From assembly GCF_037975245.1 (NCBI RefSeq), contig NC_092583.1, positions 17,444,764 to 17,508,763 on the forward strand: a stretch of DNA of 64,000 bases, written 5' to 3'. Made by a program: the position numbers and the translations under genes. The notes beneath the pieces are model-generated. The model did no database searches. It saw only the letters and a list, made by a program, of their open reading frames with translations, and was not told the origin of the DNA. The DNA comes from Apostichopus japonicus. Lineage: Eukaryota > Echinodermata > Holothuroidea > Aspidochirotida > Stichopodidae. The stretch's first letter is position 1. Each line of letters begins with the position of its first letter. Positions 11,101 to 57,800 of this stretch are shown here, piece by piece.

Positions 11101-14100
11101 GTGTACATTTTTGGAACTCACTTGATCAAGACATCAAAAACTCAAATACTCTTAACTCATCTAAAAGAAAACTCAAGCATTACCTTTTAACTAATAGTAC
11201 AAACCACCCACGCTGAGTTGTTATATTGTCTCTTTGTATGGATTTGCTTTTACATTTCTTTGCTTCCTCTTTATATTTTTTCTCTGTTTTTCCTTATCTC
11301 TTTACTCTCTCTGTACTTACAAAATTTTTGAAATTTTCCTTTTTTTTTTGTTAAGGGTCCAGACTTGAAAAGTTTCTATTTACTTCTGGTTCCTCCACTT
11401 CCATTATAGCATATTTTGTACTTTGTTTAGTTTTATTTCATCACAATTTGAGTAAATTACTCATTGACTCTGTACTGTTTATAAATATGGAAAGTGGAAA
11501 ATAAACTTGAAACTTGAATCCTGTATTGGGTGGGTCTGTTCTGTTATTGAACCTCTAATCCTGTCAACCTGTCCATGTACATAAAAACCCTACATTATGT
11601 AGTTTACATCTCAAAGCAGAAAACAAGCTTTTGCCAAAGAAATGTTCTCCATACAAATGTGTGAGTAAATGTTTTCATTAAAGAGGTCTTCCATTATTGC
11701 TGTTGCATCACTTAACCATAAAACAACAGCTCATGTTACATTGGTTAGAGTTATGTTTGGAGTATAGTGTAAACCTCAAAAATTACAAATATCCTGTCTT
11801 CATTTTGAGTAAAAATCGCAAAAATTTGATTCATCTCCAGGGACAGCTTTGTCCCAAATCTGTGTACTTAGAAGCTTATTATCACTGTATGCATGTGCAC
11901 ATTAAAATATGGCTTTATTATCAATGTGAAAAAAGTAGAAAGCAAATAAAACTTAACTACAGCAAATAAAGCAATAACAACAACAACAACAGGAAAGAGA
12001 ATGAAACATGAACTCACATATGTATGTTCATCAAAAGGAAGGTCCCCTCCATTCAGAACCCTCCAACTTTTGGTGAACTTGGTGCCAGGTTGAAGATGAG
12101 TACCAGATGGGAAATTTACATCACCCAAGAGTAGAGCATTAAATTCCCTACAGAGAGAAAAAACATACCAATGCCAAAAGTTAATACGGGAGCTTTTACC
12201 AAAGCTGTGATAAGAATTGGCAATAAGGGCAGTTGCTAGAAAAGGGGGGGGGGGATCTTTCTAGCAGTTTCCCTCCTCATTTATTTCTTTGTTTAACAGC
12301 TCTTTCTTTTCTACTAGGTTCTTGCATATGCATATTCAATACCATTGATGGTTCAATATCATATAAGCACGCAGGGCCAGTTTCTGTAAAATAAAATGCT
12401 TTAAATTCATCATGTTTTTGTCAAGGTTTTACATATAAACATTACCCTAATGCAATGCTCTATCTATGTATATATATTATCTTTGACTCTTTACAAAGAG
12501 AAAGAGATTGAACCCAAAAATACCGATAACCTTCTTGTTGTCGTAAAGGATACCCACTCCAGAACAACCATATGTGCGTCTGATACTTACAATGTCCAGT
12601 CCTTTAGGAGCTTATCCTTGGTCAGCTCACTACCGGTAATCTGGCTGGATTCCTCCTGTTCACTGGTTTTCACTGTCGTCTCCAGTCTCTCTCTCTTTGT
12701 CGGGGATGACACCTGTGGTGATAGTGCCATCTCCTTACGTTTTCGTTTCTCCTCCCACCGTAAGAACTTCATCTCGGCCTTGGCAACTTTGTGAGCTATC
12801 TTCTTAGCATACTTGAGTTTCCTGAAAGTCACGAGAGAAACTTATACTTGTTAGTTTCAGGTTTAAATGTGACACTATTATCCTTCAAAACTCTACAAGA
12901 ATAAAAGATCAATCCAAAGAATGACATTTGCTCTGCAAACAATTTACATCCTTGAACTTATCGTGCTTGTGAACAAAGCCATCCATATGTATAAAGGTAT
13001 ATTGCAACTTTTACTTATTCAACATACATATCTCAATTGAAGGACCTATCTCATGCAGTCTACTGATGACAATAGCAGAACCAAACAATGACAGATACGT
13101 TGAGGGCAAGATGACATTGTGGTGGTACATGATCCCCCCAGTTAGTGCTGTGCTTTTGGTGGTAGCTTTACAATCCTATAGATTAACTCAAACATTAAGT
13201 TTCTGTTTCACAACACAGTTTTACCTAACAGATGATCCACCTAACCGATGATCCAGCAAATACTGTTTTACCTAAGTGATGATCCAACGAACACTGTTTT
13301 ACCTAACTGATGATCCACCTAACCGATGATCCAGCAAACACTGTTTTAACTAAGTGATGATCCAACGAACACTGTTTTACCTAACTGATGATCCACCTAA
13401 CCGATGATCCAGCAAACACTGTTTTAACTAAGTGATGATCCAACGAACACTGTTTTACCTAACTGATGATCCACCTAACCGATGATCCAGCAAACACTGT
13501 TTTACCTAAGTGATGATCCAACGAACACTGTTTTACCTAACTGATGATCCACCGAACCGATGATCCAGCAAACAATGTTTTACCTAACTGATGATCCAAC
13601 GAACACTGTTTTACCTAACTGATGATCCACCGAACCGATGATCCAGCAAACAATGTTTTACATAACTGATGATCCAACGAACACTGTTTTACCTAACTGA
13701 TGATCCACCTAACCGATGATCCAGCGAACACTGTTTTACCTAAGTGATGATCCAACGAACACTGTTTTACCTAACTGATGATCCAACGAACAGTGTTTTA
13801 CCAAACTGATGATCCAACGAAATGCTGCTTCATTGTTTCTTCAGCTCACTGCGTTTGATGCTTATTGACCAAAATTCTCAGAAACCTTTTGCAGGAGAAC
13901 ATATGTCTGGAAAATAGCATATTACTGATATTTCCTACACTCTGCCTACATTGTTTCTCGTCACCTCTTACAAAATATCGGGCCATGCCCCCTCACCTCC
14001 CCCACCCTCCCTCCCCTAAACCCTTATCTGTCATACTACTCTGCAAATCATCATGCTCTTGAATTTACCACTTCCCTATCAGAACATACTGTGACTTTGA

Positions 14101-31600: not shown

Positions 31601-34600
31601 AGCTTCCAATTTGACCCTATGCCCCCTTCCTCACCCCACCCCACCCCCCCCCCATCCACAAAACAAATTGATTCCAATCATTACATTACATCTTTATCTC
31701 ACCTAGCTGGAGTTTGTGGGTTTCTTCAGGTTGGTAGGCTTTGCTGCATTCTTCTTTTGCTAGCTTTGCAGTAGAAGGTTTTCCTTGAAAAGCAAAGGAT
31801 GAAATCAAATTCATTTTGTACACTGGAAAGCAAAGGTTAATTCTATTTTGCATGGCTGACATATCCTTGTGTATTGAGGTTATTTAAATCTAAACTCCTT
31901 GAGTTTTTAAAATTTCAATGAAAGGGATAAAACAAAAGAAAACGGGGAAAAAATTAATATCCTTACCAGGGTTTGCGTCAAGATTGGAAGTCGCATTTAT
32001 TTGATATTCAGTTCCACTGCTGGATGCTTTAGTAAGAAGAGAAAAATGACCACGGGTTATTAACGGTTCTCTCTCTGTTAATAGCTGTCAAGCTTAATCA
32101 TCTAACATACTTTTTCCAGTTTTCAAAACACATTAACACAAAGAATATGTGTTTTTTTTGTAACAGCTTGGCCAAAATTTTTCTGATTTTAAAGTTAGTA
32201 TCCTAAATTTGACTTGGGTATAAAAATGCAATTAGAACATTATCAGCTGAAACAATTGAGTGTAAAGGGCTTACAGTGAAACCTAATCAATCAAGACCTA
32301 GCATATCCAACCATTCATAATTCTACAGTACAGCACATGTTCCATGCTGTTTGTTTTACAAACATTCACCCAAGGTGAAAAAAGAAAATAACCCAGACAC
32401 AAATGCTGTGAAAAGTTACATGTCGAAGAACTTTACACAGACTGGATCCTTGAAACGTGTAAACCTGAAGAATTCCCACAACAAATCTAGAGATTATTGC
32501 TCAAATCCAGGAGATTTTAAAATGTTCTAAAGTCAACATAAGACCCATAATTTCTATAATTTTTTCACTTTGTTTTAACAGTTTAGGCTCTTTGCATCAT
32601 GTATGACATGGAGATCCTGGCCTCTATGAGCAGTGCACAGAACCGTGAGTCCCACAGTATAAATTAACTATGAGAGTTTGCAGGTATGTTTACAGGACTG
32701 GTATAAAACACAGTGTAGTTACCTAAACTATCACACAACTATCTGAATATTTGTACCCAGACAATCTCCGAGCCAGACATGTCCACACCTTTCTGTCTTT
32801 GTCCTTCTTCAGTTTATTCCCTACCCCCTTCCCCTAATCCTCTCTTTGTCCTCCACTGTTTATCTCCTACTGTACCTCTCCTCTTCCCCTGTTGGTTTCT
32901 ATCTTTCTTCTCTCCATCCCTTGTCTACTAATCCCCTTACATCTATCTCTTTGTGTTCGCCATGCTCATTAACCTGTCTGTATTCTGTGCATGTTTTTGT
33001 TCCATCTGTTACTGTTACTTGTCATTTAGCCTTTGAAGAAGATCCTGCTAGGATCGAAACGTCAGGCCAACTTACTTTTACACATTCTCCTACACAGGCC
33101 CTTTAGTGGATAAGCAGTTTGCTAACAGTTTTATTTTATTTTAATTTAAAAAAAGAACAACTTTACATCCTATGATGTCTAAGTTCCGTCTCTCAAAGAG
33201 AGATCTCGGGGGCGACAAATTCGCCATTTAATGCTCACAGGTTGGCAATCAATATATTACTTCAAAGTGCATGAGGCTGCATGTGAGTTTAAAATGACAT
33301 GATCTACACATATGATGATTGTGACATTTATGTTTGACTTCACAGATACAGATGCCGTTTTACAATTTTGCCCAAGAATAAAATATAACAAATGTTTGGA
33401 ACAATATGTTATAATATATACATGTGATAGGAGCAAACAACTATCTTGAGAACTTAGTATTTAAAATAATGAACTTGTATAGACAGAGACTGGAGCACGG
33501 ACATGTTTTTAATCTTCTTTTCATTGTCAAAATGTGGTTTTTTCCTGGAAAAATCTTCTTTAAGATCAATATTATTTTGATGAGAATCACAAAAAAATTG
33601 TTGAAGATCTCAAGATGGGAGCTACTGTATTTCTTCAGAGAAATTAAAATAACAAATTTGATATGGCCTTCTTTAAGTTTGGCCGTTAATTGACATATGT
33701 AAGGTATGGCTTGAAATGAGATCTTACAACATTCAGTTTTCTCTCCTGAACATTCAGAGTGTGTTCCTGATATTTCTTCTGAAGGATAAGCTGTATGTGA
33801 AATGAAGGAAATAATGGAATGATGAAATACAAACTATTAGCACTTAATGCATAGTTTATCAGAACCAGAATGCAAGAATGCATTGTGGTTCAATGATGCA
33901 ACATGAGCGGTTTTCTTCATGTACAACTATTAGCACTTAATGCATGGTTTATCAGAACCAGAATGCAAAAATGCATTGTGGTTGGATGATGCAGCATGAG
34001 CAGTTTTCTTCATGTACAACTATTAGCACTTAATGCATGGTTTATCAGAACCAGAATGCCAAAATGCATTGTGGTTCAATGATGCAACAAGAGCGGTTTT
34101 CTTCATGTACAACTATTAGCACTTAATGCATGGGTTATCAGAACCAGAGTGCAAAAATTAATGCATTGTGGATGGATGATGCAACATGAGCGGTTTTCTT
34201 CATGTACAACTATTAGCACTTAATGCATGGTTTATCAGAATCAGAATGCAAAACTGCATTGTGGTTGGATGATGCAACATGAGCAGTTTTCTTCATGTAC
34301 AACTATTAGCACTTAATGCATGGTTTATCAGAACCAGAATGCAAAAATGCATTGTGGTTCAATGATGCAACACGAGTGGCTTTCTTCATGTACAACTATT
34401 AGCACTTAATGCATGGGTTATCAGAATCAGAATGCAAAAATGCATTGTGGTTGGATGATGCAGCATGAGCAGTTTTCTTCATGTACAACTATTAGCACTT
34501 AATGCATGGTTTATCAGAACCAGAATGCCAAAATGCATTGTGGTTCAATGATGCAACAAGAGCGGTTTTCTTCATGTACAACTATTAGCACTTAATGCAT

Positions 34601-37600
34601 GGGTTATCAGAACCAGAGTGCAAAAATTAATGCATTGTGGATGGATGATGCAACATGAGCGGTTTTCTTCATGTACAACTATTAGCACTTAATGCATGGT
34701 TTATCAGAATCAGAATGCAAAACTGCATTGTGGTTGGATGATGCAACATGAGCAGTTTTCTTCATGTACAACTATTAGCACTTAATGCATGGTTTATCAG
34801 AACCAGAATGCAAAAATGCATTGTGGTTCAATGATGCAACACGAGTGGCTTTCTTCATGTACAACTATTAGCACTTAATGCATGGGTTATCAGAATCAGA
34901 ATGCAAAAATGCATTGTGGTTGGATGATGCAGCATGAGCAGTTTTCTTCATGTACAACTATTAGCACTTAATGCATGGTTTATCAGAACCAGAATGCCAA
35001 AATGCATTGTGGTTCAATGATGCAACAAGAGCGGTTTTCTTCATGTACAACTATTAGCACTTAATGCATGGGTTATCAGAACCAGAATGCAAAAATTTAT
35101 GCATTGTGGATGGATGATGCAACATGAGCAGTTTTCTTCATGTACAACTATTAGCACTTAATGCATGGTTTATCAGAACCAGAATGCCAAAATGCATTGT
35201 GGTTCAATGATGCAACAAGAGCGGTATTCTTCATGTACAACTATTAGCACTTAATGCATGTGTTATCAGAACCAGAATGCAAAAATTAATGCATTGTGGA
35301 TGGATGATGCAACATGAGCGGTTTTCTTCATGTACAACTATTAGCACTTAATGCATGGTTTATCAGAACCAGAATGCAAAAATGCATTGTGGTTCAATGA
35401 TGCAACACGAGTGGCTTTCTTCATGTACAACTATTAGCACTTAATGCATGGGTTATCAGAATCAGAATGCAAAAATGCATTGTGGTTGGATGATGCAGCA
35501 TGAGCAGTTTTCTTCATGTACAACTATTAGCACTTAATGCATGGTTTATCAGAACCAGAATGCCAAAATGCATTGTGGTTCAATGATGCAACAAGAGCGG
35601 TTTTCTTCATGTACAACTATTAGCACTTAATGCATGGGTTATCAGAACCAGAGTGCAAAAATTAATGCATTGTGGATGGATGATGCAACATGAGCGGTTT
35701 TCTTCATGTACAACTATTAGCACTTAATGCATGGTTTATCAGAATCAGAATGCAAAACTGCATTGTGGTTGGATGATGCAACATGAGCAGTTTTCTTCAT
35801 GTACAACTATTAGCACTTAATGCATGGTTTATCAGAACCAGAATGCAAAAATGCATTGTGGTTCAATGATGCAACACGAGTGGCTTTCTTCATGTACAAC
35901 TATTAGCACTTAATGCATGGGTTATCAGAATCAGAATGCAAAAATGCATTGTGGTTGGATGATGCAGCATGAGCAGTTTTCTTCATGTACAACTATTAGC
36001 ACTTAATGCATGGTTTATCAGAACCAGAATGCCAAAATGCATTGTGGTTCAATGATGCAACAAGAGCGGTTTTCTTCATGTACAACTATTAGCACTTAAT
36101 GCATGGGTTATCAGAACCAGAATGCAAAAATTTATGCATTGTGGATGGATGATGCAACATGAGCAGTTTTCTTCATGTACAACTATTAGCACTTAATGCA
36201 TGGTTTATCAGAACCAGAATGCCAAAATGCATTGTGGTTCAATGATGCAACAAGAGCGGTATTCTTCATGTACAACTATTAGCACTTAATGCATGGGTTA
36301 TCAGAACCAGAATGCAAAAATTAATGCATTGTGGATGGATGATGCAACATGAGCGGTTTTCTTCATGTACAACTATTAGCACTTAATGCATGGTTTATCA
36401 GAACCAGAATGCAAAACTGCATTGTGGTTGGATGATGCAACATGAGCAGTTTTCTTCATGTACAACTATTAGCACTTAATGCATGGTTTATCAGAACCAG
36501 AATGCAAAAATGCATTGTGGTTCAATGATGCAACACGAGTGGCTTTCTTCATGTACAACTATTAGCACTTAATGCATGGGTTATCAGAACCAAAATGCAA
36601 AAATACATTGTGGTTTGACCTCTAATGACTCCAAATGACCTTTGACCTCCACCAAAAACAATAGGCTTCTTTAACTCAATGTGGTACGACTACACTAAAT
36701 TAGAGGTCCGTCCAAGCTTCCAGTATTTGAGTAATCGTTATTACAAGGTTTTCACAATTTGACCCCTGGTGACCCCAACGGACCTTTGCCCTACACCAAA
36801 AATAATAGGCTTCTTTTACAGGACAAAAATTTGAGCAGGACAAATGAATATGTATGAATGCTTAGAAGGGAGGAAGAAATCAGAGTTCATGGCAATGTCT
36901 AACTGGCTATTAACAGAAAATGTAGGTTAGGACCAAGACATGACAATGGACGTACCACTGGAAGAAATGACAATTAACTCACGGTCAACAAACGGACAAT
37001 AAAAAATATTGTTGCATCTGAATAGCGGGACAACTGACATAGAAATAACTTACAGAACTAATGCATGAAACCCTTAAATGCTACCTTGTTGAAACTATTT
37101 TACAATCAAAATATGGAGAGTGTAAACTAATGTCAGTGAGAGGTTAACTGGGTTGGATTGGTTGCTTCAAGTGGAGTGTCTTTAATCAATAAAAGTTGCT
37201 ATTTCCTGACACACACAGTTTTGGTGAAGCAGATAAGTAGGCTACAGTGTGTCAGTTACATTGTACCCTGTACCCCCCTCCCCCTTAACCCCTCTCCCTC
37301 CCACACACAACTTTATCTAAATTCTTCATCATCCTCTACCAAATGAAGATTGAACTTCTTTCACAGTATTGTTAAATTCAAACAGTGATCTTAACAATGT
37401 GATTTCTCCAGCTTTACCTATATCCGGTATCAAAATTAACATTTTTCGTAGCAGCTTTTTTCATATTAATTACTGTAATTATAACTAACCTGTTTTTGAG
37501 TCCAGGTCTTTACTGTCCTTGCTCTCTGACCCACCGCATGCACCCTGAACTAGAGCTGATAGTTTGAAATCATCTTTATATTCTGCTGAGCGTGAAGTGT

Positions 37601-40600: not shown

Positions 40601-42935
40601 TCATTTAAGTAATTCGGCTCTGACAAATACTTATCGTTATTCGAATACTTATTCGCTAGTATTCGGATACTTATTCGCTAGTATTCGAATACTTATTCGC
40701 TGGTATTCGAATACTTATTCGCTGGTATTCGAATACTTATTCGCTGGTATTCGAATACTTATTCGCTGGTATTCGAATACTTATTCGCTGGTATTCGAAT
40801 ACTTATTCGCTGGTATTCGAATACTTATTCGCTGGTATTCGAATACTTATTCGCTGGTATTCGAATACTTATTCGCTGGTATTCGAATACTTATTCGCTG
40901 GTATTCGAATACTTATTCGCTGGTATTCGAATACTTATTCGCTGGTATTCGAATACTTATTCGCTGGTATTCGAATACTTATTCGCTGGTATTCGAATAC
41001 TTATTCGCTGGTATTCGAATACTTGTACGCTAATTAGTTATGTTATGAAGGCTTAACAGGTTTCTGAATACTTACTCGAATACTTATTGAATACTTGTAT
41101 GCTAATCAGTTCCAAGTAAGGAGAGTTAGGAATTTGGCCAGCTAGTTGTCGTAGCTCCTTGATTAAAACTCTCCAAACAAATAATGAGAATAACCAGAAT
41201 TCTGAAGAATGTTAAATTAAATGCACTTAATTTAAAAGTCTGTTCTGATGAGTTGGCCTGCTGGTGACATCAAGTATTCTACGACATCAGATCTTCCACA
41301 TCAGATATTCCACGACATCAGTATAGTTGAAAACAATAAATGGTATTATGAATTTCCAATCCCAACAAAATATTATCCTTTAATTTTAATCAATGGTGTC
41401 GCTGGGTATCCTTCAGTAAAATAATATCAATATCCTCTGTAGTAAAATAATGTCCTGTATAATAATAGGTGTCCTTTATAATAAAATAGTTTCCCAGACT
41501 GTCAGTTGAATATCACAACTTCCATAAAATGATAAGGACTACAGTAACTTGAACTATGTAAATTAAGGTTTAAAACAAACTATCCAGCCATTAAACTATC
41601 TTTCTCTTCTTTTACAACTGCCTTGCTCAGATACTTATAGCCAACTTCCTAACTCCTTATACCCCTCACAAAACTCCCTTTGTTACTAAAATATATACAC
41701 ACAGACCCCATTTCCTGTAGGGGCTAATTTCCAGGAACAAGAAGATAGTTGCCTAGCAACCCAGAAGAGGTAGAAGTGTAGAGGTTTTAATCCACCCTTT
41801 TGCTGCCACAAGACAACATACAAATATACTGTACAAATGTATAGCCCCTCTGTACAGTGAGCACTACACAGTGCACTAATAAACAAGTAAAACTATGGTA
41901 CAAAACAAAACTTTATGTAATAGCTGACCATCTTATAAAAGGAAATAAGTATTCGAATAGGCATTCCTTAGGTATTCAATGAAATAAGTATTCGAATACT
42001 TATTGGAATTGCTATATTTAGTATTCGATTAAGCATTCAAAGGAAAGAAGTATTTAAATACCTATTAGAATAGTTATTTTAAGTATTCAATTAGGTATTC
42101 TAAAGTCTGAATACTTAAATTTTTGAAATACCAACTATAAGGCTATTCGAATACTTAGCGAATACTTAATAGTTATTTGTTTTGGGTAAGGGAAGGTGAA
42201 CTGCTACGTAGGAACTGTGTTGTTGTCTAACACTTGCAGTAACTATCTACTGTCCAAATACAGGAAATCTCGGTAAGATTACAAATGGAAACAAACAGTG
42301 TGATTTGATCTATTGGTCACCATCTCTTTCTTTTACCTAGAATATACATGACTGTGATCCCAATCATGAATTATGGGATGACATAGCAACTCTAAAGCTG
42401 TTTAAATCAGTTGCTTACTAGGGTTTTTAAACTTTCATACAGTCCAATATTTGATATTATGTTTCCTTCTCTCTTACTTATCATTACAATTAGTGTAAGT
42501 CTTCATAATAGCCTAACATTATATAAATTATACAAGACATAGGTTACCGCCTGTCAAGTTATCAACTCACCTGAAATTGGATATGTAAGATATGCTTCCA
42601 TCTCTCCAAGCTGGTATTCCTTTGGGTTCCAGTATCGTTTTCTGTAACCTTTTCTTCCCAATGAGGTAAGTAATCTGTGACAACAATCTGACTTTTTTGG
42701 GCGAAAGAGATCCATTTCTGTTCATTTCGTAGAAAATGTCTCGAGCTGAAAGATCTCTCTTTTCTAGGAAACTTTCATCGTTCATGAATTCAAAACAGAG
42801 AAACTTTAACATTGGGACATCTTTTCCACCTATCTTTGAACCCAGTTTAAACAGCAAGTCAGCATAATCTTTCTCTGAAACAGTTGGCAATTCAGATATC
42901 TTAGCATCTGCCTCTATGTCCCCGGTTCCTGCCAT
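27220..42935 (-). CDS. CASP8: Caspase-8-like initiator caspase: two DEDs, long linker, p20/p10 domain with non-canonical active site; 13 exons
   Basis: This is a predicted cytosolic initiator cysteine protease recruited through death effector domains. Exons in transcript order: 42571-42935, 39378-39619, 38343-38492, 37873-37947, 37490-37603, 31967-32026, 31703-31783, 31259-31354, 30772-30870, 30158-30244, 29484-29672, 28768-28974, 27220-27755. They join in frame to 766 residues plus stop (human caspase-8 is 479). DED1 is about 23-100 and DED2 about 122-200. Residues 203 to about 485 are a Ser/Thr/Lys/Glu-rich linker from eight small phase 1-1 exons. The protease domain keeps P1-pocket Arg495 (IPRG), catalytic His568 (CSHGD), Cys611 ([10 protein letters not shown]) and a small-subunit Arg674 ([11 protein letters not shown]). 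The usual QACxG reads NTCLR, so the pocket Gln is Asn. The p10 part carries ALKAE three times at 713-727 from a 15-bp coding repeat. The start is the Met at 42935, chosen over one seven codons upstream because a splice-acceptor-like CAG lies between them. It could be a caspase-10-type paralogue or a regulatory pseudo-caspase. A linker exon may have been missed in the 5.5-kb intron 5. Confidence 0.9.
28430..28680. repeat. (TA)n-rich microsatellite in caspase intron 12
   Basis: About 250 bases almost entirely of TA repeats with interspersed TATG, TATAAA and TTT words, immediately before exon 12 in sequence coordinates. Confidence 0.95.
29020..29345. repeat. Dispersed repeat copy containing one 93-bp satellite monomer, in caspase intron 11
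   Basis: 29020-29085 matches one monomer of the 33829-36611 array ('ccagaatgcaaaaa', 'gcattgtggttt', 'gagcagttttcttcatg'). 29126-29345 matches 36612-36825 on the right flank of that array ('tgactccaaatgaccttt', 'caataggcttctttaactca', 'aaggttttcacaatttgacc'). Diverged relatives of the flank part occur near 7118-7205 and 51999-52110. Confidence 0.8.
32780..33145 (+). mobile_element. Possible Penelope-like retroelement fragment with hammerhead-like motif, in caspase intron 5
   Basis: A pyrimidine-rich stretch leads into 33029-33067. There GCCT, TTGAAGA, a 5-bp hairpin (GATCC-tgcta-GGATC), GAAAC, GTC and AGGC occur in the order of a minimal hammerhead ribozyme. Penelope-like elements are known to carry such motifs. 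The invariant first core C is T and the core has one extra A, so it looks degenerate. No reverse transcriptase frame is present. Confidence 0.35.
33829..36611. repeat. 93-bp satellite array, ~30 monomers with higher-order structure, in caspase intron 5
   Basis: Every monomer has 'actattagcacttaatgcat', 'cattgtgg' and 'ttttcttcatgtac'. Diagnostic variants (ccaaaatgc + aacaagagcgg; gaaattaatgc-type insertion + gatggatg; aaactgc; cacgagtggctttc; gcagcatgagcag) recur in fixed order, defining a ~466-bp five-monomer unit and longer repeats. Both exon neighbours are intact. Confidence 0.97.
36612..36825. repeat. Dispersed repeat flank bordering the satellite
   Basis: Matches 29126-29345, with differences throughout. 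It joins the last satellite monomer at the same junction order as in the 29-kb copy. Confidence 0.8.
37655..37825. repeat. Degenerate ~31-bp tandem repeat in caspase intron 4
   Basis: 'aaacaatgcttttgatgagt' and 'caacagtc' words recur about five times. Confidence 0.75.
39745..39815. repeat. ~22-bp short tandem repeat in caspase intron 1
   Basis: 'tcaagcctaacagggttgtt' occurs about three and a half times. Confidence 0.85.
40640..41025. repeat. 22-bp minisatellite built on a GTATTCGAATAC palindrome, in caspase intron 1
   Basis: About 17 copies of a 22-bp unit (cttattcgct + ggtattcgaata), almost all identical in the core. Degenerate relatives surround it at 40420-40640, 41040-41110 and 41945-42175, so the homogeneous core seems to be a recent expansion in an older repeat field. 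Confidence 0.95.
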
Positions 42936-48240: not shown

Positions 48241-49816
48241 ACCTGATCAAAAACTTGGGACACATACACCACTTGTGACTGCTTTCTTAATTTTAGATAT
48301 GCTAAACTATAAAAGTTGTAGTAAAAATGTATATACATATGAAGAAAACGATACATTTATTTCCAAAATGGAAAATGTTATTCTCCTATCCAGTGCTATA
48401 TTTATCAACCTTCTACTCCAGGTTGTTCCCTATTATTACCCCTCACCGAGATTAACATCCCCAAGAATGCTGCTATCAGCCAATAACGTTTCCACCAAGA
48501 TAAAAAGATGAGAAAGTATAGAACAACAAAGTGCCCGTATTTGCCAGGAATTTCATACCAGGTATATCAGTTTGCCCAGTCCTATCACCCTGCCCAGGAC
48601 TATTTAGCTCATAGCCTCATATCATATAGACAACTGCTGTGAAAAAACCAAATAATGCTAAGCCGAATAACAGTATTAGTAGTACACAATATCCAATAAG
48701 ATAACACACGATTCAGATTCCTCAAAATTGTTAGTACGTAAAATTCCAAAGCTTTGTTTCAACCATTTCTAACGATGAAGTAGAAATGAATAGGTGAATT
48801 TTTAAATTTGATATTAATGAAGGGTAATTAATTTTCTAGAAAAATTTAAAGGGCTACCTGACACCTAGTCTCCTAAACGAGATATTATCCATCATATGAG
48901 ATGGTTTTAACTAATATCGTACCTGCCTATTACATGCAATGAAGATACATGTGATCATCCTAGCTATGGTGCTTTCCTTAATTACGAACAAAATATGTCA
49001 AAGTGTTTACAAATTTACAAACATGAAGTGGTTACCCATCACTATTCTTTATATAATGCTAAGATAATGGACTGTCACTGGATGGAATTCTGTTATAGCC
49101 ACTTTTTCATTGTCTAAAACTTCCCAGTCAATTTTCCATTATTCATTTATTGATATCGATAAGAAAGAGTACAAATGTCATCTTGGCAGCTGAATAATCT
49201 AGTAAAAAACAAACAATCATTATAAAAAGCATGTGAATTGTGAAAGTAGTCTGTTATATTGCTCTTGTGGAATATTTCTCTTGTTGTGAAAACTTGTGAT
49301 TCCTGATCAATTAATTACCCGTCAATGAAATATTTATGAAAATATAATCAAAACATGAGAAATGTCTTGCCCATCAGTCCACAGCAGACTTTTAATTGGG
49401 TGCGAAAATTTTAAGATTATTGGGACTGAAGATTTGTATAAGCCCAGAAAGTTATTTACCAGATCCATTCTAGCAAACACTAAGACAAACACTTCTACCC
49501 AAGGCAGTATTGTCACACAGGTAAGCACACTTGGTCTAAAGGTGAGAAAAAAGTAGCTGGAAAATGAATCATCTAGTAAGTTATAAGGTGTTCTTGGAAA
49601 TAATCTTGAAGACTCGTACCATTACCTCTTTAGCTTGATGCTTCAAATCCCAATAGAAACAAATTGAAAAAGTTTAGGTGGTTACCCCGCTTCCGCGGTA
49701 TCTGGTTATATCAATTAATATACTTGTCATGTCTCATATACCCTCACTCTAGAAAATGGGCCTCTAGTGATATGTAATTCAGCCACCAAATTACAACTCC
49801 CTAAGTAGCTCAGCAT

Positions 49817-52800
49817 TTAGTTTCCACCCAAGTAAGATGTTTTTGCGGGAGGTTCTATGCCAGCGTAGACAGGATTTGCAGCCTCGCTGACTACACGCAC
49901 ACCCAGATAAGCCATCAGTCCATCCGTGGTGAGGTCTTGTTCAATTATGATGTTGGCAAATGCATTAGCCTCGGCTTCGTATTGCGCCAAGATGGCTTCC
50001 GCTTGAGCAACGGCTCTGTGTCAAAGAATGATATAAAATATATATAAATCATGGGAAGAGAATAGAATTGAAGAAAAAAAGTAATAAGAGCAAATGACTG
50101 GTTGCTTGTAAACCTTAAACAATCCAGGGGTGAATGTATTCAGCTCAATAATCTGAGACTTCTAATAACTTATAAGTTTTTATATGTATATAATGGAATA
50201 CATGACATTAAACACTTACGCATTTCGAGAAATCCTCCCATCTGTCTCAGCTCTGTTGATATCAATAACTGCTTGCGTCTCTGCCTCTCGGAGGACGGTA
50301 TTTGCCTGGGTGAGTTGGCGAGGTCGCTCCGTCTCAGCCACTTGAATATTTTCACGAGCAGCTTCTTTGCTCTTCACAGCATCCTCATATTCTATCGGTC
50401 TCGCGATGTTATTCACCTGAAATTGAGAGCAATGTCATGAAATATCAACACTGACCTTGTGGCTGGTAGAAGAAGGTACTAATTTCAAATAAGTCTAAGT
50501 ATAGTTCACAAACATTGTAAGACTGTAAGACACAAATATTGTCAGACCTTTGACAGCATTGTTTCTAAATGAGTAAAAGCAGACAAGTGTAGCTTAGTTT
50601 ACCTCTAGGTCCGATACAGTGCAGTGTTAAAGTAGACAAGTGTAGCTTAGTTTACCTGTAGGTCCGATACAGTGCAGTGTAACAGCAGACAAGTGTAGCT
50701 TAGTTTACCTGTAGGTCAGATACAGTGCAGTGTAAAAGCAGACAAGTGTAGCTTAGTTTACCTGTAGGTCAGATACAGTGCAGTGTAACAGCAGACAAGT
50801 GTAGCTTAGTTTACCTGTAGGTCCGATACAGTGCAGTGTTAAAGCAGACAAGTGTAGCTTAGTTTACCTGTAGGTCCGATACAGTGCAGTGTAACAGCAG
50901 ACAAGTGTAGCTTAATTTACCTGTAGGTCCGATACAGTGCAGTGTTAAAGCAGACAAGTGTAGCTTAGTTTACCTGTAGGTCCGATACAGTGCAGTGTTA
51001 AAGTAGACAAGTGTAGCTTAGTTTACCTGTAGGTCAGATACAGTGCAGTGTAAAAGCAGACAAGTGTAGCTTAGTTTACCTGTAGGTCCGATACAGTGCA
51101 GTGTTAAAGCAGACAAGTGTAGCTTAGTTTACCTGTAGGTCCGATACAGTGCAGTGTTAAAGTAGACAAGTGTAGCTTAGTTTACCTGTAGGTCCGATAC
51201 AGTGCAGTGTTAAAGTAGACAAGTGTAGCTTAGTTTACCTGTAGGTCCGATACAGTGCAGTGTAACAGCAGACAAATGTAGCTTAGTTTACCTGTAGGTC
51301 AGATACAGTGCAGTGTTAAAGCAGACAAGTGTAGCTTAGTTTACCTGTAGGTCAGATACAGTGCAGTGTTATAGCAGACAAGTGTAGCTTAGTTTACCTG
51401 TAGGTCAGATACAGTGCAGTGTTATAGCAGACAAGTGTAGCTTAGTTTACCTGTAGGTCAGATACAGTGCAGTGTAACAGCAGACAAGTGTAGCTTAGTT
51501 TACCTGTAGGTCAGATACAGTGCAGTGTTACAGCAGACAAGTGTAGCTTAGTTTACCTGTAGGTCCGATACTGTACAGTTGATTCCATCCAGACGTTCCC
51601 GTACAAACTGTCGGACGGTGATCTGAAATTCTTCCCGAATTGACTGAAACTCTGTTGTGTTGTACTGACTGCAAGCTTCATGGATGGCCGACTCAGCTGT
51701 GAGGAGGGAAAGGTAGACATCAAGGGCTGACATAGCACATAGATAAGCACAGTACACCCAATAGTGAAACTAAGCTGGGGTCAAGGGATGAATGGCTCAC
51801 ACAATAACTGAATCAAAACAGCCTCCCACTTGGATCCCTAATATGCCTGTAACCAGTCCTACACACTTTAGTAGTGCTCAAGCAAACAACTTCAGGATAC
51901 ATTGTTTTCAAAGGAAAATAAACAGAACACAACCACAAACATCATCTTGCTGTTTGATACTCCTGTACATCAAAAACTAATTGCATGTTTCAAAAGGTTT
52001 AAGGAATTCGACGGAATTTGACCTCAAATGACCCATGATGGTGACCTTTACCAAAAACTACCTGGTTTTTGTACACCCTTAGATGGAGTATGAATGAAAG
52101 ATTAAAAAAAGCCAGTTGCCTCTCTTTCCACTGAAGAGTGAATGAACCAACCTTGGGGAAGTTGGGGTAGTGTGTACAAATAGAAGACTGTACACCCTTG
52201 TGATCTAATATTATGATGTATGCAACAGATTTTTCTTTCCATCCAAGTAACCAAAAAAAGGTTATATATTAAAATAAAATAAAAATCAACATTTTGTCAT
52301 GTACGTGATTAAAACCAACAGGAAATACTTCTGGGAATATTATTAAATATTTGAAAAAAAAATTGTGTCTAAAAAGACTTGATGATGATGTATTAGTTTA
52401 TTCAAAAATATTCAAAATATTTCTGTTCTCAATTCGTTTACCTGAGTTTTCAATTGCTCTTTTGAAAGTATCATGGTCTTTAAACTGAAGCACTGTGTAA
52501 ATAAGTGTCTCTTGGTTAACCTTGAAGAAAAAGGAAAGACAGAAATAATCAAACGGACTACTTACGATGTGACGGTAATGGACAAAGAAAAACTTTCAGC
52601 TTTGACCAGAAATCAGTTTCTCTGTCTTTATGTTGCAGTCCAACATACATTTAAAAAGTTTGCAAGCCAAATCATCCACAAACAAGTTCATGCTACAGAT
52701 GATACTATAAGATATACACAATGCAAGGACAGTGTGGCTGCTTGATGGTTATGCTGTACAGAACCAAACAGGTTTACTAATATTATATTCCTTACCAATT

Positions 52801-54836
52801 ATACAGCTCTACTAATTACCACAACCCATATACCATTGGGTTCTCTCAAGCCAAAAATAGTCAGCCAACTGGCTAGTTCTGACCAATGATAACTTCAACT
52901 TCTTTAAGTCATCATAGAGTTTACTTGCACTCATATTCCTCCCCTTTGGCAAATAGTTTTTTTTGTTATTACAAGTGCTTACATGCAAAAGGAATACATC
53001 ATTATAAGCTTCACAGCAAAAGAATCTTTCTTTATTTTACATTAGAATATTGTGAAGTCTCCATCAGGTTTTCCTTACTCACAAAGCCTTCATCACTTAT
53101 AGCTTTTATTTTAATGAACAAGGTACCACAGCAGGCACTAAATGCATGAAAACATGTAAACCGGCCAATATTTATCTTCGTACATTACTTGGTTTTTATC
53201 TTTCATTATTTGAAGTATTGCTTAGATGTTTAGGCTGTGACTGCACAGCAGGATGAATTGCCTACTAAAGCCTTTCTCTGGAGTACATACTACAATGGTC
53301 CAGTCCAACCAGCTATGAAATATATCGTCTGAGCCAAATCATTTGCAGGATTACCTCATCACTAGTACTTTGTCAGATGTGCCCTGGCATTGTTACTGAT
53401 TCTGATTATATAGTAATTTAATAAACAGCCTGCAAGGCAAGCATCACAACTCATTTCACATCACACAAACACAATGATAAAGGCTGTAGCACGAACAGCT
53501 TGCTAGAGGAATCCATCAGTATGAGCTGGATATTAATATATTTGAGAAGCTTAGTGTAGGTTAGTCCTTCAACTTCCTAACTACAGTGCCTTATATGGTT
53601 CGACATGATAGGTATATCATATATATTTGAGATGCTTAGTGTAGGCTAGTCCTTCAACTTCCTAACTACCCAGCGCCTTGAATGGTTCAACATGATAGGT
53701 ATACCAACAAGTTAAAGATGATTTGCATAAGGAACTCAGCTGACCTCAGCTGTGCTTAGCTTATTACATCAATTCTTACCCTTTCCCTAATCCTGCAAAA
53801 TTATTAACTGGGTGTGAATCTTTTTCCAAAATATCAAAAAAGGAACAAATATGAGAATATTGAAAAGTATGGACTGTATCTTCTCTACCAGAAAGATTGA
53901 GACTACAGGAACTACAAACACAAAACTTTAAAATTCACTGCAGCTCTTTAAAGACACTGGGGGCGATAATTAAACTTTGAAATCGGCTGGCCTGAGAGCA
54001 AACCTTCCTTAACTTATCATCAGATACCACTGTAAAACTCACTTTGTACTGGAAGGCAATGCTTAATGTCACCACCACACCATCCTTATTCAGACAATAC
54101 AAACTATCATAAGATATGGTTCGAAAGACAGCAGGGAAGATGATGAACTTGAAACCTGGTGGACCTGAATGAAGACCTTCCTCCTTAACCTCCTCATAGA
54201 GAGTTCTGGAGATGGTGTTGTACATCAGTGCCACTAATGAAAAACAAAGCCACACTATACAGTTATCAATCTGAGACTGAAATGAAACTAGGAAATTCTG
54301 GAAATTGAATCATAGACCGTTAAATATAATGTTTGATTTATTGGTAAATTTACCATACTTTTATCAATTTTAAAAAGACAAAATCAAACAAAAGGAAACA
54401 CAGCATGAAATGCTTCTTATAAATCCCAATTAAATTCTTGAAGATTCAATTGACTTCATCTGCTTTTTGAAAGGTGAGGCCTAATTTCAACTGATAACCT
54501 TAGACTTGATGACATCTTTATATATTTTTGCCCTTGGAGAGAATTAAAGCAATCCTTCCCTATACATATTCTCAATTCAGCATTTGTGTGAAATGCCTCA
54601 ACTTTCACTTACTGAAGGTGAGAAAGAAATGGAGGAGAGGGGGGGGGATACTATCCCCTCACTTTGGAACACCTGACAGACGAGGGTTCATTTGCCAGAT
54701 GATCTTGTGTTAGAGTTATATTAATCTTACTTTCATCTGACTGTAAGGTCTTCAAGGATGTTGCAATGAGGATAATGATACCAACAACACCAATAACAAC
54801 AGCGCCCCCAATTCCATACACATGCTTCTTTTCCAT
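49817..54836 (-). CDS. SPFH/band-7 (prohibitin-stomatin superfamily) membrane protein, six exons
   Basis: Exons in transcript order: 54731-54836, 54043-54233, 52442-52520, 51557-51696, 50220-50416, 49817-50015. They join in frame to 303 residues plus stop. The start is the first Met, directly followed by one hydrophobic segment at about residues 8-29 (GGAVVIGVVGIIILIATSL), a likely signal anchor. Residues 33 to about 190 form an SPFH-type domain: GLHSGPPGFKFIIFP, a DGVVVTLSIAFQYK strand, then helices ending in QFVRERLDGINCTVSDLQ. Residues about 190-260 are an Ala/Glu/Arg-rich helix (EAARENIQVAETE, AQAEAILAQYEAEANAFA), as in the coiled-coil arm of stomatins and prohibitins that drives ring oligomerisation. 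Family members scaffold membrane microdomains; no substrate can be named. I cannot assign it to a named vertebrate subfamily (stomatin, prohibitin, flotillin, erlin). A 5' UTR exon is likely, because an acceptor-like CAG lies just upstream of the Met. Exon 4 ends in a donor that is tandemly repeated 19 times into intron 4. Confidence 0.88.
50574..51560 (-). repeat. 53-bp minisatellite carrying the SPFH exon 4 splice donor, 19 copies
   Basis: The exon 4 boundary reads TATCGGACCTACAG|GTAAAC (minus strand, last exon base 51557). The same boundary sequence plus the following intron bases (TAAGCTACACTTGTCTGC) recurs every ~53 bases through intron 4, 18 times beyond the real site. Copies differ mainly in TATCGG/TATCTG and in the short linker. 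Confidence 0.95.
53543..53702. repeat. Two-copy ~92-bp tandem duplication in SPFH intron 2
   Basis: 'agtccttcaacttcctaact' and 'catgataggtat' recur in the same order in two copies. Confidence 0.8.
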
Positions 54837-57800
54837 CTCTGATCACTGCTTTGTCCTGAGTTAACTTCAAGAGAAGGAGAAAAATCATTTAACATGCAAG
54901 ACTAGATATGAAAGCAGAGATGGGAGCTATTAAGTCCAGCAGTATGAAACTGATGATACATTGTGACTTCAAATGTCTTCTGAACTTTTCATTGCACACT
55001 AAATAATAGCATATATATGTATTACATGTTTACCAAACATCAAAGAACTGCACATTATGCAATGAAAGTTGACAACCTTTCTTTTCATGAGGAGAATTAG
55101 TCCATTAACCATAGGTTGCATTTTCAGCTCTCTTGACCTAAACTTACTGAAGCTTAATATCTCCACAAATAGTCTGATGAGTTTAGAAGAGTTGATTTGT
55201 TCACACTTTGTACTGTCTTGATCTGATAGTGATTTTGCTACTAGCTGTGGGATGAGTTGCATAATAGACGAATAGGCAGCTCAACTAAGGTGCGATTACA
55301 TGGGACTGATCACTCAGCTAACCAACTGGAAAAAACCTGCATTTAGTACAAACAGCAGGTTTTTGGGTGCAACCTATAGCTAATTGCCACTTTTCCAGCA
55401 TGTTAGGTTTTGCAACTTGCATCCTATGCAGTGTATACACACAACATCACAAACATATTTATATTATATGGCCGTGGCTATTCTTACGACTAGTCGTAAC
55501 AATTATTTATAAACTATTCTTACGACAAAGGGCGAATTCAAGCGCAGTAAAGTAAATAAAGAAACTGCGCATGTAGTAGGGGTAACCCTAACCCTAACTT
55601 TAACCCTAAACCCCAATCCTAACCCTAACCCTAACCGGAAATTATTGTTACTCCTGGTCGTAAAAAATACTACTCCTGTCATAAAAATAGCAACTGCGCA
55701 TGCGTAATCGGAAATTATTCTTACGAACAGTCGTAAGAATAGCCACTTTGATATTATATACTATGACTCTACCTCTACACCAACTAAGAGTAAGACCAGG
55801 GCCCATGTAACAATGGGCCATCCTCTTTTTCAGGCTAAACATATTGTTAGTAGGCCTAGTTTGGCTAAAGTATTAGAACGTCTGGCTTGGCCTAGCATTA
55901 GTCCTGATATAACTGTGTTAAGCCTAATTAGTTAGGCTAGGCCTAGATTTAGGCGTATCACTAGGCCTAGACATAGGCCTAGTTTGGATTCGGGTAAACA
56001 AGGGCCTAACTTTCATTGAAAAATGTACCTTACTTACTTTGAGCTTAATACTAGGTTATGACTATAAGTAACGTTATTTGCTGCTTTAGTATACATTTGT
56101 AAGCATTTGTAAGCTCACGATTACCTTGAGGCTTGGAAATGTTGAAGTACCTGAATTTAACAAACTTGTACTGTACGTCTATCGACAACACCCGATCATG
56201 GTCACAGTACTGTACACTTCGGTACGCGGTGTGAGGACAACCGGTGTACAATTGATATAGGTCAAAAGATTACGTAAACAATTGTGTATACAGACCACAG
56301 AGCCGTGTAATATAGACACGGCTCTGACAGACCAAGGTAAGCGTTAAAAATAGAATAGGCTGGTGTAAATTCCAAACAGCATATTACGACATCATTTGAA
56401 AGCAGTGTGAGCTTATATACACATTGGTATAATTGATGCAGTTCATTAGCTCAAAACAAGAGTACCGGCTTGAGGCGACACCCACCCCCCCCCCCCACAT
56501 TAAATTCACATTGGGGATAAATTCCTTTGAACTTGAAGCACAGGTTGTTATATAACATTTATCAATTTATCCATCTTCTAGTTAGTCCCCCTGTTATAGA
56601 ACACAAGTATGTGCCTCTATTTATGGCAGTGGGTTTTTCTATCCATTTTCCATTACAAAAGTGACATGACCTAGGTTTCAGGGGTCCTGGTTCAAGAATG
56701 GGAGCAAGGGCACTTCAACAAAAGTATACTATAAATCGTGATCCATTGACTCAAAATGTTAGAACCAACCTTGGGAGACCCTGGATATTGATTAGTTCAT
56801 TAAGTTTTCAAGAAGTAGAAAATCTACATATGAAAGCATCTAGGTGGATGTTCTTTGTTGCAAAACTTGCAACAGTTTATCAAACAACTTGGAATAATAA
56901 ATATATCCAAGTTATCATTGGTCATCTCACTCCTACCCTCTCAGATGTATAGAGCAGGTAGCTTGTGTAAATGAGTTGTAAAATATCATAGTCAAAACCT
57001 GTAATGATGAGGATTCCTGAGAACTTTGAAATATTGAAATAGTGCATGAAAGAAAAAAATATGAAGAAGTCTGGACACTTGCAAAGTGTTAACATTTATT
57101 AGTTCACAACATGAGCAACACACTGTACAAATTGTAGTCAAACCTATGCACTAAGCATGACATGTACAGCTTACTTACACATTGTGAATGTGAATCCATT
57201 AACTAACTGTTCATTATTAAATTATCAAAAGAGATGAGTCACTACAAGTCCACACCAGTCTGAGGCCTGTCTCCTTAAACCCTCACTCACTTGTCCCCCC
57301 CCCACCCCACCTCTCCCACCCCTCCCCGAATCCATTCAGGCTCTGATATTGTGATTCCTACAGATACATGTTATGTAAAGTTATGGTATCACAAATACAT
57401 TCTCAGAAAGTGTCTTCATCATGACAATTTTTTATTTTAAATATTATTTATTATGTAAAGAAGATAAAGATTAACAAATAAAGACAGAAAAAAATTGCAA
57501 CTTTGGCATAAAACTTGAAACCAAAGAATTAATGAAATGAACAATTATTTTAAGAAAGCTTCAGACTACAACTGTTATTCTTCTTTTAATTCTTGGGATG
57601 TAATTAATCAGCAGTTACTTAAACAAAAGGCAGTCATATTGTCCTTATAAATAAGTTTCAAAGCATAGTTCTTTGTTTAATATTGTGACTTCAGCATTTT
57701 ATTGCTTATCATCTTTTCAATATTGTCATTTTTTTAAACATGACTACACTGTGAGCAACAATATCTTTCAGGACACCTAAAAGCAAGATTAATAACATTT

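Follow-up and report, generated by a model that had tools for sequence, protein, structure and literature searches.

The human IFI6 gene (6-16, G1P3) carries a minisatellite that reportedly provides multiple splice donor sites, as described by Turri, Cuin and Porter in 1995. In one account of this gene, two downstream repeat units act as splice donors and three mRNA species result (PMC4526556). UBC and VCX3A represent a second type of system, in which every unit contains AGGT, the spacing is constant and the intervals are GT-AG (Duan et al. 2024, PMC10809524); for UBC the same source describes coding monomers and in-frame intervals of 228 nt, the splicing being shown by RT-PCR. Another known class, described for human duplicated genes, is that of internal tandem repeats at exon-intron boundaries, for which effects on splicing have been reported (De Grassi and Ciccarelli 2009, PMC2812944). 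New introns are also known to arise when a tandem duplication takes in splice sites (Rogers model; potato RdRp, PMC4974935; Drosophila, PMC2891723). Minisatellite-borne multiple donors, as in IFI6, and AGGT tandem arrays, as in UBC, are already published.

The window analysed here is a stretch of 64,000 nucleotides from Apostichopus japonicus (NC_092583.1), and positions below are those of the window. In it, a minisatellite overlaps the boundary between exon 4 and intron 4 of an SPFH/Band_7 gene, which makes it similar to the boundary repeats of De Grassi and Ciccarelli; as described, those were found through paralog copy-number variation with transcript support (PMC2812944), whereas the present array is known from one assembly. 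As in IFI6, the array begins in an exon, runs into the next intron and has a donor in each unit; as in UBC and VCX3A, each unit contains AGGT at constant spacing, giving GT-AG intervals; and as in potato RdRp, the duplicated segment holds a splice site and crosses an intron/exon boundary (PMC4974935). There are also differences. The added units of IFI6 are described as used and as giving isoforms (PMC4526556), whereas here the unit is 53 nt long and any extension meets a stop after two codons, so that extended protein isoforms of the IFI6 type came from 0 of 18 alternative donors. Unlike UBC, the units hold stops and have a weaker acceptor context, and the array occupies the beginning of a normal intron. 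In contrast to AGGT intron gain, no new intron seems to be implied, and an existing one would have been lengthened. What sets this array, in an echinoderm host, apart from the known ones is that an extension always ends the protein.

The host gene and its exon 4 donor

The gene was modelled as six minus-strand exons that join to encode a protein of 303 residues: exon 1 (54731..54836, from the ATG, with an N-terminus that looks transmembrane-like by eye), exon 2 (54043..54233), exon 3 (52442..52520, 79 nt), exon 4 (51557..51696, 140 nt, ending in phase 0), exon 5 (50220..50416, 197 nt, with the acceptor CAATTTCAG|GTGAAT) and exon 6 (49817..50015, to the stop codon). All six exons matched at the locus in the genome search, which also turned up two weak matches elsewhere on the contig; the limits of exons 1, 2, 4 and 6 rest on the exon model together with the genome exon match, and those of exons 3 and 5 on the exon model. 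Exon 4 is flanked by introns of 745 and 1140 nt, the latter being intron 4 (50417..51556, minus strand), and intron 5, at 204 nt, is the shortest of the gene. No structured RNA was found at Rfam gathering scores in window positions 49500-55000.

The spliced model had a single Pfam match, to PF01145 (Band_7; E 2.7e-20, residues 33-201), whose score of 73.6 bits against a curated cut-off of 23.6 places the protein in the SPFH/Band_7 family; prohibitin and stomatin chains were matched in the PDB (best E 7.9e-09). Because the Band_7 match spans the exon 4/5 junction, which falls after residue 172, and the prohibitin alignment is gap-free around it, position 51557 was taken as the true exon 4 donor. 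Among the five donors in the model, that of intron 3 has the same nine bases as that of intron 4, CAG|GTAAAC, and since exon 3 uses this identical donor, the array copies that carry it are donor-competent as far as their sequence goes.

Anatomy of the array

The minisatellite lies at 50576..51579 on the minus strand and has a period of 53 bp, 18.9 copies, 95% matches and 0% indels in the TRF analysis of the window, which was combined with a unit alignment. Each unit consists of ~23 nt resembling the end of exon 4 followed by ~30 nt of sequence from the start of intron 4. Copy 1 takes in the terminal 23 nt of exon 4 itself (51557-51579); the array thus starts inside this exon and its remainder fills most of intron 4, where 954 of the 1140 nt (18 x 53) were assigned to the extra copies. 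The sequence-only reading had described nineteen tandem copies of a 53-bp donor unit beside an SPFH exon, each spanning the exon 4/intron 4 boundary and carrying exon-like bases and a donor, with the true donor at 51557. The TRF copy number, the unit alignment and the protein matches across the junction agree with all of this. The span it gave, 50574..51696, does contain the array but runs past its end at 51579 as far as the 5' end of exon 4.

Nineteen donor-like sites were located on the minus strand at an exact spacing of 53 nt, their last exonic Gs falling at 51557 minus 53k (k = 0-18). Bases -3..+6 read CAGGTAAAC (CAG|GTAAAC) in 17 of the 19 copies, CAGGTAAAT (CAG|GTAAAT) in copy 13 and GAGGTAAAC (GAG|GTAAAC) in copy 19. 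The shorter word AG|GTAAA is present in 19/19 copies, as is AGGT, at a constant place of every unit. The most intron-proximal site, that of copy 19, has its last exonic-like G at 50603 (minus strand), leaves an intron of 186 nt to exon 5 and has the weakest U1 pairing of the 19.

An array of this kind is not a chance product. Among copies 2-19, the unit alignment showed 7 variable columns out of 53, in irregular order; two of the 9 donor columns varied, against 5 of the 44 elsewhere in the unit, and the donor columns of the array are thus without special conservation. The irregular differences at these 7 columns also argue against an array made or lengthened by the assembler. HiFi reads are expected to span a 1-kb array. 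The A. japonicus assembly was, according to its description, built from PacBio HiFi reads with hifiasm at 64x (PMC10344927), and an assembly artefact is extremely unlikely.

Origin and genomic setting

The genome searched comprised 671,581,487 bases (671.6 Mb) in 35 contigs; the published description of the A. japonicus HiFi assembly gives 671.60 Mb in 34 scaffolds, with 23 chromosomes of 18.21-46.02 Mb, a scaffold N50 of 29.65 Mb and 19,828 genes (PMC10344927). A 33-nt core pattern of the unit, searched with up to 3 mismatches, gave 19 matches in the genome, 19/19 of them inside the array, and the backwards-read control gave 0. The whole stretch had one match in the genome. The unit is confined to one locus within the sensitivity of the search, and a dispersed repeat or mobile origin was rejected within the same limits.

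Exon 4 (copy 1) shares 21 of its 23 exonic positions in the unit with the array consensus, and the 2 differences are synonymous third positions. As the exonic part of the unit aligns to coding sequence and the differences are synonymous, amplification would have run from the exon into the array, with the exon kept by selection; this direction fits the data, on very few sites. Subtraction of 18 units from intron 4 leaves 186 nt, a length akin to that of intron 5 (204 nt), and 186 nt may have been the length of intron 4 before amplification, a figure that comes from arithmetic and is not an observed state.

Two SPFH paralogs (L018 and L019, C23:12.36 Mb), ~9 kb apart, have identities of 37% and 31% (E 0.0014 and 1.27). 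In both, the region that is split here into exons 3 and 4 forms one exon of 250 nt with a phase 1 end, and CAGGTAAAC occurred 0 times on both strands of the ~3.2-kb stretches searched. Because the matching exon ends in phase 1 and not phase 0 and CAGGTAAAC is absent from these stretches, the paralogs were rejected as a picture of the ancestral state, and these two weak relatives are unable to date the array.

The frequency of arrays was estimated from 200 kb of sequence, sampled as one 10-kb stretch at a round coordinate on each of contigs C1-C20 (20 stretches). The sample held 14 arrays with a period of 20-150 and at least 5 copies, covering 5279 bp (2.6% of bases), and 3 of them had at least 10 copies; in the window, 7 arrays had at least 5 copies and 4 had at least 10. 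Minisatellites are common in this genome, and such an array is not exceptional for it. TRF also reported a 93-bp array of 29.6 copies with higher-order periods of 376 and 469 bp (window 33832-36615), a 22-bp array of 17.9 copies with 98% matches and the unit TATTCGAATACTTATTCGCTGG (40638-41031), and a 78-bp array overlapped by rows of 31- and 47-bp period (13212-13821).

With donors on the order of 10^5 (the number of introns per gene being assumed) and frequent arrays, many donors would come to lie inside minisatellites by chance, before any selection. Triple arrays of the consensus donor word CAGGTRAGT, which is not the word of the array itself, gave 121 overlapping matches genome-wide and 129 in the backwards-read control; a genome-wide excess of donor arrays was rejected on this count. 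Since CAGGTRAGT triples were no commoner than in the control, nothing points to selection for donor arrays. About half of the matches listed lay in one array on C22, and at least 15 distinct loci were represented. One of the 15 loci was examined (L049:1280-1860, C5). It holds a 27-bp array in which the reverse complement of CAGGTAAGT occurs 10 times over ~600 bases; the array is intronic and antisense to a gene that by eye we take to be tRNA nucleotidyltransferase-like, so that these motifs do not serve this gene as donors. Among the matches listed were also tandem units of ~67 bp resembling repeated microexons (C19:2649160-2649760, ...CTACAG|ATGCAACAACAAATGATGCAAACACAG|GTAAGT...), in which acceptor-like and donor-like words enclose an open stretch of 27 nt, and tandem units of ~56 bp that contain CAG|GTAAGT as well as an acceptor-like TTACAG|CC (C17:905383-905838).

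Consequences of downstream donor use

All 19 transcripts, one per donor, were built and translated. Donor 1 gave the full protein, and the 18 alternative donors all gave an identical protein of 174 residues ending ...SDLQVN. The start of intron 4, GTAAACTAA (51548..51556, minus strand), adds two codons and then a stop when it is retained. Since every extension opens with GTA AAC TAA after the phase 0 end of exon 4, all three length classes are truncated alike. It had been proposed that an extension of 53n bases stays in frame for n divisible by three and not otherwise, provided that no stop intervenes; a stop does intervene and makes this distinction void, as none of the 18 alternative donors gives a longer protein and no copy number yields one. 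Protein-length variants through 53n extensions were rejected, and a length-variable protein switch through downstream donors is excluded. The array had been seen as either a length-variable splice-choice element or a tolerated one in which the first donor wins; the former falls in its protein-switch form, and the latter is now the best supported.

In the 18 alternative transcripts, 241-1142 nt separate the premature stop from the last exon junction downstream of it. By the usual rule, a stop at such a distance upstream of the last junction makes a transcript a target of NMD, and the extended transcripts are expected to be NMD targets. An effect on expression level, through alternative splicing to NMD, is possible. 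A copy-number-dependent share of transcripts might use the 18 downstream donors, meet the stop and be lost to NMD, so that the length of the array tunes the SPFH protein. The early stop common to all 18 alternatives, well upstream of the last junction, suits such tuning, but it is the automatic outcome of a TAA in the first nine bases of intron 4 and calls for no design, and the donor motif has no special conservation in the array. We consider this tuning of expression unlikely.

Probable choice of the first donor

In a simple duplex calculation, the U1 pairing energy was -8.3 in 18 of the 19 donors and -6.9 in copy 19, compared with -14.0 for a perfect site. As 18/19 energies are equal, position and not pairing strength would select the donor, and the same equality also speaks for the tuning of expression by downstream donors. 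For near-equal donors, Carranza et al. report that strict exon definition leads to preference for the upstream one, and human minigenes with two identical CAG/guaagu donors and 365-nt flanking introns are described as using the upstream donor exclusively (PMC9225289). By analogy, the first donor should win at exon 4, because the exon measures 140 nt and its flanking introns 745 and 1140 nt. A point against this is that human donor-choice rules are thereby carried over to another animal.

On this basis we favour, with a probability of roughly three in four, an ordinary locus-derived minisatellite that arose from the exon 4/intron 4 junction and is tolerated because exon definition leads to use of the first donor. 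A segment made up of 23 nt from the end of exon 4 and 30 nt from the start of intron 4 would have been amplified in tandem to 19 copies, which would have stretched intron 4 from ~186 to 1140 nt and left a usable-looking donor in every copy. The first donor would most likely be picked via exon definition, with an exon of 140 nt compared with 193-1094 nt for the others, and a slightly more open local RNA fold at copy 1 may be a minor aid. The 18 downstream donors would be near-silent decoys, any use of which would lead to a stop two codons later and presumably to NMD, and the array as a whole would be close to neutral.

The predicted cost of opening the donor was lower at copy 1 than the mean of copies 2-18 by 0.87-1.05 kcal/mol in 4/4 settings, and it was the lowest of all 19 in 3 of the 4. 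When the flanks were shortened and the settings changed, copy 1 ranked as the most open in only 1 of 3, and the modelled difference in accessibility is small and not robust. A hairpin hiding the decoys alone (CUGUA...UACAG) was rejected, since CUGUA is found in copy 1 as well, at another spacing, and UACAG is missing from copy 19.

Some evidence speaks against the choice of the first donor. Under full U1 occupancy, the intron-proximal donor is classically favoured. Alternative donors can be bound simultaneously by several U1 snRNPs (PMC5389562, PMC5861446). Before differences in strength were removed from the data of Carranza et al., ~60% of all events favoured the downstream donor; in the short-intron (intron-definition) classes that preference held even after correction for strength (PMC9225289). 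Since splicing at the last copies would leave introns of 186-292 nt, a downstream preference could favour them; this also lends some weight to the tuning of expression by the most intron-proximal donors.

A copy-number-dependent switch between the two modes of donor choice would combine these rules. With few copies the intron would be short, the intron-proximal donor would compete well and transcripts would be lost; expansion would lengthen the intron and move the true donor into exon-definition territory, and the AGGT of the units would let retained stretches leave as 53n-nt introns. Longer arrays would then be safer than short ones, and the repeat would buffer itself while its length sets the level of SPFH protein. 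Such a switch is very improbable.

The AGGT of the units could also act differently, with AG|GT serving as an acceptor as well as a donor. Removal of a 53n-nt GT-AG interval would then restore the exon 4 donor, and changes in array length would be silent at the RNA level. AGGT is present in 19/19 copies and, judged from the letters, removal of any number of units regenerates the same type of junction; 8 of the 18 array copies have a branch-point-like TTTAAC ~24 nt ahead of the CAG, and dual-specific sites have been demonstrated in the tandem repeats of human UBC (PMC10809524). The acceptor context of the array is, however, weaker than that of real sites: positions -20..-4 before the CAG are 53-59% pyrimidine with a longest run of 3 in 18/18 copies, against 65-94% and runs of 5-16 in the five real acceptors of the gene, although the gap to the weakest of these (exons 5 and 6, 65%, runs of 5 and 6) is not large. 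Recursive (ratchet) splice sites are defined by a pyrimidine-rich tract directly before CAG|GT, and with a longest pyrimidine run of 3 in -20..-4 none of the 18 array copies qualifies as one. A one-unit intron of 53 nt is also unlikely, as it would be well below the 204 nt of the gene's own shortest intron and the shortest gap, 241 nt, among the 15 neighbouring exon pairs of myosin-head genes in this genome that passed the neighbour rule out of 70 matches; this objection on size is less sharp for two or more units. We regard such self-erasing splicing as very unlikely.

Meaning of the array

The array represents a known phenomenon in well-preserved form, and the frame test corrects the idea that it could produce protein variants here. 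It offers a natural experiment on donor choice, in which evenly spaced sites, 18 of 19 with the same predicted U1 pairing, are on offer and the proper product needs the first. The conflict between the upstream (exon-definition) rule and the intron-proximal rule is the main question that it raises. Should splicing always take the first donor, exon definition would be seen to prevail over 18 near-equal competitors in cis, and this outside the vertebrates. If it is not always the first, repeat length would be a possible heritable dial on the expression of this gene.
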